Shown here: piece after piece, positions 3,637 to 5,806 of the stretch
Layout: each line of letters begins with the position of its first letter
Position numbering within the stretch: the first letter of the stretch is position 1
Assembly (NCBI RefSeq): GCF_001544915.2
Contig: NZ_FCOE02000001.1
Span: 1-64,000, forward strand
Origin: Caballeronia pedi
GTDB taxonomy: Bacteria > Pseudomonadota > Gammaproteobacteria > Burkholderiales > Burkholderiaceae
Direction of reading: 5' to 3'
Length of the DNA: 64,000 nt
Program-made: the position numbers and the translations under genes
Notes under the pieces: model-generated
The model's input: only the letters and a program-made list of their open reading frames with translations
Databases searched by the model: none
What the model was told of the DNA's origin: nothing

Positions 3637-4497
3637 GTGCTGATTTTCGTAGGATCGCTCGTGACATTGCTGTCCGTGTTCGGCGGTTACGCGCTCGAAG
3701 GCGGCCACCTTGGCGCGCTCATGCAACCTGTAGAGATCTTGATGATCGCGGGCGCGGGCGTCGGAGCGTTCATCCTCGGCAACAACGTCAAGACCATCAA
3801 GGCGACCATCCAGGTCCTCCCGACGCTCTTCAAGGGCGCGAAGTACGACAAGAGCATGTACATGGAGCTGATGGGGCTGCTCTACGTGCTGCTCGCGAAG
3901 GCGCGCAAGGAAGGCACGCTCGCGCTCGAAGCGGATATCGAAGACCCGTCGAAGAGCCCGGTCTTCAGCCAGTACCCCAAGATTCTCGCGGATCATCACA
4001 TCGTCGAATTCCTGACGGATTATCTGCGCCTCATGGTCAGCGGCAACATGAACGCGTTCGAGATCGAAAGCCTGATGGACGAGGAGATCGAGACGCATCA
4101 CGTCGAAGGCGAAGCGCCCGCGCACGCGCTCACCAAGGTCGGCGACGCGATGCCCGCGTTCGGCATCGTCGCGGCGGTGATGGGCGTCGTCCACACGATG
4201 GCTTCCGCCGATCAGCCGCCCGCGATTCTCGGCGAGATGATCGCGCAGGCGCTCGTCGGCACCTTCCTCGGCATTCTGCTTTCCTACGGCTTCATCGGCC
4301 CGCTCGCGAACGTCGCGGAACAGCGCGTCGCGGAGCAGACCAAGATGTTCCAGTGCATCAAGGTGACGATCCTCGCGAGCCTGAACGGCTACGCGCCCGC
4401 GATCGCGGTGGAGTTCGGCCGCAAGGTGCTGTTCTCGACGGAGCGCCCGTCGTTCTCCGAACTGGAAGAACACGTGCGCCGGGTCAAGTCGAAGTGA
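3637..4497 (+). CDS. motA: Flagellar stator protein MotA
   Basis: Proton-channel subunit of the flagellar stator, 286 residues, four membrane segments. Translation starts at GTG 3637 (read as MLIFVGSLVTLLSVFGGYAL), seven nt after GTGAGGA; the frame is open further upstream but shows no MotA similarity there. The cytoplasmic loop with the charged torque residues spans about 70-165. The paired C-terminal membrane segments (PAFGIVAAVMGVVHTM and FLGILLSYGFIGPLAN) carry the conserved prolines. Its partner motB is displaced by a 286-bp palindromic insertion. Confidence 0.96.
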   Translation: MLIFVGSLVTLLSVFGGYALEGGHLGALMQPVEILMIAGAGVGAFILGNNVKTIKATIQVLPTLFKGAKYDKSMYMELMGLLYVLLAKARKEGTLALEADIEDPSKSPVFSQYPKILADHHIVEFLTDYLRLMVSGNMNAFEIESLMDEEIETHHVEGEAPAHALTKVGDAMPAFGIVAAVMGVVHTMASADQPPAILGEMIAQALVGTFLGILLSYGFIGPLANVAEQRVAEQTKMFQCIKVTILASLNGYAPAIAVEFGRKVLFSTERPSFSELEEHVRRVKSK

Positions 4498-4509
4498 CTT
4501 CCTCATCAC

Positions 4510-4795
4510 AGGGTCTGTTCACATATAAAACGGCCATGCGAACGCCCGAAATCGGCTGCAGTGCAAGAAGCGCGTCGCGCCGTTTGGCCGCTCCAAACAA
4601 GCGGCGCGCGACGCCGCAATGCGGCCGATTTCGGGCGTTCCCCAAGATTAATTTTTCTAGTCAGGGGTTGCCCCGTAAAGGGCCGCTCGCGGCGTCATGC
4701 TCCTCGCGAATACTTCCGGTATTAGCTTCGTCGCATTCCTTGCGATCGGCCCTTTACGGGGCAACGCATGGCCGTTTTATATGTGAACAGACCCT
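4510..4795. mobile_element. 286-bp nested-palindrome element between motA and motB (MITE-like)
   Basis: Three perfect inverted-repeat pairs are nested. The outer pair is 31 bp, 4510-4540 with 4765-4795, starting AGGGTCTGTTCAC. Arm A is 17 bp, 4540-4556 with 4624-4640, continued inside by a second stem (4572-4587 with 4593-4614, one 2-nt bulge). Arm B is 19 bp, 4667-4685 with 4747-4765. The whole could fold as one stem with two long arms. It has no transposase frame. The ends and size fit a miniature inverted-repeat transposable element, but I cannot see a target duplication. It fills nearly all of the 310-bp motA-motB gap; motB's ribosome site (AGAGA) starts at its right edge. Family unknown. 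Confidence 0.75.
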
Positions 4796-4807
4796 AGAGA
4801 CACAGCG

Positions 4808-5806
4808 ATGAGCACCGAACGCGAACGTCCGATCTTCATCAAGCGCATCGTCGCCGGCAAGAAGGGCCATCACGGCGGCGCGTGGAAGCTCGCCTACGCG
4901 GACTTCATGACCGCGATGATGGCGTTCTTCCTGCTGATGTGGCTGCTTTCTTCGACCTCGCCGGTGCAGCGGCGCGGCATCGCCGAGTACTTCAACATGC
5001 CGCTCAAGGCGGCGATGGTCGGCGGCAAGAGCGTTGGCATGGACAACAGCATTCTGATCGGCGGCGGGCGCGACATCTCGAGCACCGAAGCGGGCGCGGC
5101 GCGCAAGACCAATGGCAGCACGCAGCTCGCGCAGCGCGCCTCGTCCGACGCCGACGAAGAATTGCTCAAGGCCGCGCAAGGCGAGCTGGAACGACGCGAA
5201 CAGGTGCGCCTGCACGATCTCCAGGTGAAGCTCATGGCCGCGATCGAGGCCAATCCCACGTTGCGCCAGTTCAGGCAGCAAATCCGCATCGAATCGACGC
5301 AGCAGGGCTTGCGCATCGAGATCGTCGATACCCAGAAGCGCCCCATGTTCGCGCTCTCCAGCGACGCCGTGCAGCCCTACATGCGCGACATCCTGCGCGA
5401 GATCGGCAGGACCTTGAACGACGTGCCGAATCGCATCGTCGTGCAGGGACACACCGACGCCGTGAAATACGCCGGCGGCGACAAGGGCTACAGCAACTGG
5501 GAGCTGTCGGCGGACCGCGCGAACGCGTCGCGGCGCGAGCTGGTCGCGGGCGGCATGGACGAAGCCAAAGTGCTGCGTGTGCTCGGCCTTTCATCGACGC
5601 AGAACCTGAACAGGAAAGACCCGCTCGATCCGGAGAACCGGCGCATCAGCGTCATCGTGCTCAACCGGCGGGCGGAAATGTCGATGTTGCGCGACGACGG
5701 CTCGCCCGGCGCGACGCTCGACAACGGCACGGACACTGAAGGCGCGCCAACGACTGCGCTCGGCCAGCTTATTCCCGGTGTCGCGGCACGGCCCGCGGCG
5801 CATTGA
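4808..5806 (+). CDS. motB: Flagellar stator protein MotB
   Basis: Stator subunit that anchors MotA to peptidoglycan and carries the proton-binding aspartate, 332 residues. The single membrane segment follows YADFMTAMMAFFLLMWLL, with D32 in the position of the essential E. coli D32. The C-terminal OmpA-like domain (about 170-290) has VQGHTDAVKYAGG, NWELSADRAN and RRISVIVLN. The ATG at 4808 has only a weak AGAGA ribosome site at the edge of the preceding palindromic element, so translation may depend on that junction. Confidence 0.95.
   Translation: MSTERERPIFIKRIVAGKKGHHGGAWKLAYADFMTAMMAFFLLMWLLSSTSPVQRRGIAEYFNMPLKAAMVGGKSVGMDNSILIGGGRDISSTEAGAARKTNGSTQLAQRASSDADEELLKAAQGELERREQVRLHDLQVKLMAAIEANPTLRQFRQQIRIESTQQGLRIEIVDTQKRPMFALSSDAVQPYMRDILREIGRTLNDVPNRIVVQGHTDAVKYAGGDKGYSNWELSADRANASRRELVAGGMDEAKVLRVLGLSSTQNLNRKDPLDPENRRISVIVLNRRAEMSMLRDDGSPGATLDNGTDTEGAPTTALGQLIPGVAARPAAH

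Follow-up and report, generated by a model that had tools for sequence, protein, structure and literature searches.

A mobile, gene-less palindromic element between motA and motB of Caballeronia pedi

The spacer between motA and motB of C. pedi holds a palindromic element that is mobile and not a fixed operon structure. We judge it likely that this is a gene-less palindromic MITE and that it entered the spacer by insertion in this lineage, probably moved in trans by a transposase of the IS5 family (IS427 type). Its transcript is predicted to form one stem with two arms, with the motA stop beside the motB start.

The element at motA-motB and its copies elsewhere

The window, the 64-kb stretch of DNA that was analysed, has the following features at this locus (TIR, terminal inverted repeat; G034, the closest relative).

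3637..4497, + strand: motA, with a GTG start by reading
4498..4509, + strand: left part of the native motA-motB spacer, identical to G034 up to CTTCCTCATCA
4510..4795, + strand: whole palindromic element, 286 bp, a member of subfamily A in sense orientation to motA and motB, with arm 1 leading
4510..4540, + strand: left TIR, matching the compared IS5-family IS ends at 11-13 of its first 14 nt
4541..4639, + strand: hairpin arm 1 with inner stem-loop
4640..4666, + strand: T-rich linker between the arms, with a short CCC/GGG stem at its base
4667..4764, + strand: hairpin arm 2
4765..4795, + strand: right TIR
4796..4807, + strand: remainder of the native spacer, including the ribosome-binding region of motB (AGAGACACAGCG), identical to G034 from GAGACACAGCG onward; Shine-Dalgarno score -2.9
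4808..5806, + strand: motB

The gene at 3637..4497 we take to be motA, from homology and an earlier note on this DNA. Its stop codon lies at 4495-4497 and the motB ATG at 4808, leaving 12 nt on each flank of the element. The earlier note had described a palindrome between the two genes with a 31-bp perfect TIR and two arms, and this is what the locus contains. The repeats at 4510-4540 and 4765-4795 are perfect complements (0/31 mismatches), arm 1 (GAACGCCCGAAATCGGC) pairs perfectly over 17 bp and extends inward with mismatches, and arm 2 (GTTGCCCCGTAAAGGGCCG) pairs perfectly over 19 bp. At 286 bp, gene-less, bounded by a 31-bp perfect TIR and with no motor of its own inside, the element is built like a MITE. 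Its predicted RNA fold reaches -193.5 kcal/mol (z -18.1) on the + strand and -193.7 kcal/mol (z -16.2) on the - strand, and on either strand none of 200 dinucleotide-preserving shuffles folded as well. The TIR pattern has no second match within the 64-kb window. Inside the element we found no outward sigma-70 promoter and one terminator-like match, on the minus strand (0.7 expected). A known structured RNA was also considered and rejected: the 3 Rfam matches at E ≤ 1, the best of them to animal or plant microRNA models, scored 22-24 against gathering scores of 100-102.

Besides a single full copy, the C. pedi genome (9.14 Mb, 142 contigs) contains a decayed right end at C72:516661. The decayed copy (L010:3618-3688) has lost arm 2 and part of arm 1 and retains the linker and right end; a decayed end in G034 (L090; C4:948125) is near-identical to it. 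Within the genus, element matches are present in 15 of 58 genomes, C. pedi included. A 23-nt end pattern with ≤2 mismatches occurs in 16 of the 58, some of these possibly by chance, and the reversed control matches a few too. In a sample of the family, at least 41 of 200 genomes, from 8 of the 25 genera, have matches at E ≤ 1e-8, the genome count being a lower bound because three candidates were scored per genome. The plasmid collection yielded five matching records (Burkholderia 3, Paraburkholderia 1, Caballeronia 1) and the phage records searched yielded none.

To read the spacer in relatives, we used 30 loci from 56 genomes with a match (C. pedi included); two could not be parsed, leaving 27 relatives. 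All 27, the closest one included, lack the element between motA and motB. G034, whose motB is 98% identical, has the spacer CTTCCTCATCATTCGAGACACAGCGATG where the window has CTTCCTCATCAC[element]AGAGACACAGCGATG. Across the loci collected we found 107 distinct TIR-pair sites, defined by ≤11/31 mismatches, a length of 170-420 bp or 1427 bp, and ≥40 blast bits to the alignment; most loci were chosen for carrying a copy and the 107 sites are uninformative on frequency. Merging sites with similar flanks gave 89 clusters, and splitting three doubtful ortholog pairs gave 92. Copies thus stand at non-orthologous sites and relatives have empty sites, as expected of a MITE. The impression in the earlier note that the element looks like one is borne out by these sites and by the likeness between its ends and those of a group of IS5-family ISs. 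The opposite pattern that it had named, conservation at motA-motB throughout the relatives with no copies elsewhere, is contradicted by the 27 empty spacers and the copies elsewhere.

Ends, target and candidate transposase

We searched six genomes with Pfam PF13340 and obtained 23 places. One IS from this search, L166, has ends CCTAGGGCGTGTTCACACTAT on both sides. In a set of 23 loci examined for their ends, L166 included, 16 have the ends CTAGGG(C/T)(G/C)TGTT(C/A)ACA or close variants, two of these loci being the same IS. Among the remaining seven, four have only an unrelated inverted repeat and three have none. The IS5-family ISs found here are about 811-832 bp long with CTAG around both ends. 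When the window's element end was compared with both ends of eight ISs, 11-13 of the first 14 nt agreed; agreement at 12 of 14 is reached at 10 of 41,318 positions (all of the eight loci, IS ends included). The likeness is confined to the outer 14-18 nt of the TIR, and an IS carrying the full TIR was not found in the search. IS5 loci of other groups were rejected as relatives, their ends beginning GAGGCC or GAGACGG, unlike the element.

Flanks were tabulated in 74 rows, of which four had a spurious left end and 70 were usable. They mostly read YT|AR, with T..A in 46 of the 70 usable rows, and with C the commonest outer base at -2 and G at +2. TA stands on both sides in most rows, and the A and T may belong to the element. 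At one site (L045) the joined flanks suggest that no target-site duplication was made. At motA-motB itself the element is flanked by C..A instead of T..A, and the joined spacer has 13 nt where relatives have 14, so target and duplication are unreadable there.

With ends like those of IS5-family ISs and a CTAG-like target, the preferred reading of the element is a MITE mobilized in trans, likely by an IS5-family transposase of the IS427 type. The IS427 group favours CTAG. Members of this group in Paracoccus are 832-865 bp long, with inverted repeats of 13-21 bp and 2-bp duplications except one with 4 (available text of PMC3281130). The ISs found here are similar in size to that group, the outer 14 nt and flanking CTAG are alike, and the transposase is probably shared. 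In contrast to the IS427 group, the element is gene-less, neither its inner TIR nor its arms turned up in the ISs found here, and its duplication is ambiguous. With the C-terminal half of the L166 transposase as query (126 aa), relatives at E ≤ 1e-30 were found in 9 of 299 family genomes and none in the C. pedi genome. Relatives were also found in 13 plasmid records, six of them named IS5 family transposase. Beside the best plasmid place listed for the element in each record (7 + 4 records, most of them sparsely annotated), no transposase name appears. In four genomes, ends with an exact 11-mer match pair at element size except in one 1427-bp copy invaded by an IS110; many 11-mer ends have no exact partner, and of those examined most are decayed copies.

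Anatomy and orientation of the family

Full copies are mostly 282-289 bp long. Most of them, in one genus after another, have both arms and the linker, which upholds the view of the earlier note that the double-arm layout goes beyond a simple MITE, yet a form of about 187 bp without arm 2 exists. Some copies have an extra small hairpin (GCCCCG..AATCCCC..GGGG-like), as if itself mobile, at the tip of arm 2 in L011:3908-4219 and L020:1503-1807 and inside arm 1 in L077. The last locus (L077:1370-3955, G002) also has about 2.2 kb between two remnants of different element copies, with differing inner TIRs; this insert encodes PAAR-like and peptidoglycan-amidase-like proteins by reading of the sequence.

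The stems co-vary as palindromic DNA. We aligned 37 of 53 full-length copies, hand-picked to span genera. RNAalifold predicted 96 pairs in this alignment, 48 of them with at least one double change. By parsimony on a FastTree tree there were 96 direct changes from one Watson-Crick pair to another, 26 to G.T, 20 to A.C, 10 repairs and 19 others; the TIR alone accounted for 40 Watson-Crick double changes, 4 to G.T and 6 to A.C. The apical part of arm 1 departs from strand symmetry (8 G.T : 1 A.C). Fold energies showed no significant strand preference (mean E(+)-E(-) of -1.7 kcal/mol, p = 0.16). Selection on RNA would favor G.T on one strand, and the near symmetry of G.T and A.C with few intermediates suggests instead that the stems are probably homogenized at the DNA level. 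Template switching in quasi-palindromes is a mechanism that could account for it.

Neighboring genes were called by a codon model trained on eight genes of the window, not taken from curated annotation. Of the 92 clusters, 40 are co-directional sense and 11 co-directional antisense (p 6e-5), 22 are divergent, 6 convergent and 13 unassigned. A smaller set gave 31:8, the collapsed sites 39:11 and the uncollapsed sites 50:13. Each copy was assigned to the subfamily of the nearest of the 37 aligned copies, the short and IS110-invaded forms being counted as A. Subfamily A, to which the window's copy belongs, stands between co-directional genes in a ratio of 37 sense to 4 antisense (p 1e-7), 21:1 where gene scores are ≥80 and 17:0 where both gaps are ≤60 nt. 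Subfamily B, with an inner TIR like CTAATAACGGGCTTGCG, has 1 sense and 6 antisense copies (p 0.125; A versus B, Fisher p 1e-4), and subfamily C has 2 and 1. The upstream stop codon spans the element junction at 14 of the 40 sense sites and none of the 11 antisense sites. With the same TIR at either end and a palindromic target core, neither target nor stop codon explains the orientation.

The asymmetry seems to reside in the linker, which in A-sense transcripts reads like CTGGAATGAATTTTTTAATTT. This A-sense consensus is fitted better by the arm1-first strand in 71 of 75 A copies and by the reverse complement of that strand in 10 of 11 B copies, the eleventh being a tie. Most B-antisense transcripts therefore show the same linker strand as A-sense ones, and the linker of subfamily B is apparently inverted, as judged from this fit. 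The rule is post hoc, found after the bias, and is broken by one sense B copy (L250). In the composition of the linker at 45 sites, T exceeds A in 32 and A exceeds T in 11, with two ties; six further sites were unaligned.

Since copies between co-directional genes mostly face one way, we predict that the element matters, or stays harmless, in the shared mRNA. Only the orientation bias hints at a role there. One alternative, in line with the decoupling suggested in the earlier note, takes the family for a selected RNA module: processing of the sense hairpin-linker-hairpin in the mRNA would set the ratio of the flanking cistrons, mobility being delivery only. The sense bias of subfamily A, complete at its tight junctions, and the U-rich linker in the transcript strand of A-sense and most B-antisense copies agree with such a module, and there is precedent for cleavage by RNase III or E in Correia and ERIC elements (available text of PMC10969869). 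However, the stem changes are strand-symmetric overall (G.T 26, A.C 20), the linker rule is post hoc and has its exception in L250, the linker composition is mixed, and the motAB insertion is young, confined to C. pedi among the genomes read. We regard a selected module as unlikely, if worth keeping in mind.

Similarly doubtful is that the bias arises in the act of insertion, by transposition coupled to the direction of transcription or replication, and not by selection on the transcript. Copies at the glcE-glcF junction, in one orientation in eight genomes of two genera and not one clade, would fit this, but a palindromic target core and the same TIR at both ends provide no known determinant, and subfamily B runs the opposite way. 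The junction (named by reading) is occupied at L014, L020, L101, L107, L210, L219, L230 and L252. The common ancestor of its copies spans 75 of 92 copies. Between the two genera their identity is ≤0.79, against 0.93-0.99 for the best match of each in its own genus, which for three of the eight is another glcE-glcF copy. As these copies are not one clade, the junction was hit more than once or the copies were converted.

Copies are often at operon junctions. In addition to glcE-glcF, gene pairs named by reading of their proteins include flgK-flgL (L097), flgI-flgJ (L254) and tssG-tssH (L200), and on an annotated P. sprentiae plasmid a copy stands between co-directional SMP-30-like and RuBisCO-like genes. 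At L254 (G116, around 1581-1893), the element separates a strong Shine-Dalgarno GGAGG from the ATG of a flgJ-like gene, and a split ribosome-binding site bridged by the predicted fold is possible. Phage T4 genes 25 and 38 have comparable split sites, where a fold between Shine-Dalgarno and AUG restores the distance (available text of PMC3014915). The T4 folds are short, whereas the element family has one candidate clear case in L254, and motB is not of this kind. As a general rule the split site was rejected, the joined site being strong only at L254 (-10.0; next -3.5). The 19 sites (uncollapsed) that lie ≤9 nt from a start have a right-side Shine-Dalgarno score of about 0.

Genome G247 has two 1427-bp copies (L122:2051-3477 and L123:1968-3394), the second with a changed end. 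Both contain an IS110-family gene, flanked by AAGGAG repeats, at the same point of arm 1, which could suggest an IS110-type element as the source of the recombinase, with the family as its non-coding shell. A third copy of this IS110 in G247 (L145) lies outside any element, so the IS110 is a guest. The recombinase gene expected in every autonomous copy is present in these two alone, and at E ≤ 1e-100 it occurs in only 3 of 65 genomes of this genus, where the element is in 21 of 26. IS110 was rejected as parent on the third copy and this distribution, and we consider the shell reading very improbable. Least credible is a cis-regulatory structure that is ancestral and fixed in the motAB operon: the exact intercistronic position and strong fold are in its favor, but it is refuted by the 27 empty spacers, the copies at many other sites and the lack of an Rfam family at gathering score.

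The element in shared transcripts

Several known repeats resemble the element in part. bcr1 of Bacillus cereus is a dispersed mobile repeat with foldable sequence; it is about half the element's length and from another phylum. bcr1 is cited in PMC3110155. Compared with the Correia/NEMIS MITEs of Neisseria, the element has two conserved inner arms, other ends and another target. Both are short, gene-less, TIR-bounded repeats found in transcripts, and Correia TIRs are cut by RNase III (available text of PMC10969869). The Chunjie MITE of Geobacter, from a different host, is similar in size (178-235 bp) and stands in an operon without disturbing it (same review, PMC10969869, available text). Like the element, BRE (Betaproteobacterial repeat element) is dispersed in Betaproteobacteria and mostly intergenic; BRE differs in being about 90 bp and in tandem, and the BRE table in the available text of PMC3110155 has no Burkholderia. 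REP/REPIN was rejected, these being palindromes of 20-40 bp (available text of PMC3733652), a size exceeded by a 286-bp element with 31-bp TIRs. PMC2267715 has no mention of Burkholderia. Our literature search, with subscription journals mostly outside its coverage, found no published description of the family, and four 12-nt end strings occurred in six papers, all titled on animals, cells or viruses. A structured MITE is a known kind; what is new is a two-arm core kept from genus to genus, a rule of orientation and a linker that is apparently inverted.

In our preferred reading, of a MITE moved in trans, an IS5-family transposase would act on the element. Insertion at or near a stop codon would be tolerated, as the first bases of the element can re-form the stop, and the folded insert may be nearly transparent to the next start codon, the stem base joining the flanks much as the folds do in the split sites of T4 genes 25 and 38. 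The one-way orientation probably acts through the transcript. There the U-rich linker between two hairpins is a plausible cleavage or binding site for RNase E or RNase III, and the stems could also be cleaved; Correia elements, cut by RNase III, and ERIC elements, cut by RNase E, are the models for this. Beyond the element's right end, motB has a leader matching the one in relatives; a strong block is therefore not implied and the predicted effect on motAB is small, a mild separation of the two cistrons.

More speculatively, and with rather low probability, the family may be a mobile 'cistron spacer': a cassette of hairpin, linker and hairpin between TIRs, whose transposition would target operon junctions with a stop codon. 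The linker strand would have to match the transcript, as it mostly does in two subfamilies with opposite arm order, and the insert would fold out of the ribosome's way and tune or insulate the two cistrons. If so, its transposition would hand out ready-made post-transcriptional control.

Palindromes of this type should not be taken for native motAB regulation. MITEs are usually seen as passive debris, and in this Burkholderiaceae family one transcript strand is measurably preferred. The family's copies lie where the genes of an operon meet and at stop codons (motA-motB; by reading also flgI-flgJ, flgK-flgL, glcE-glcF and tssG-tssH), with stems matched within each copy. This raises the questions of how one side of a palindrome copies its changes to the other, and whether a mobile element is evolving to be harmless, or useful, inside polycistronic mRNA.
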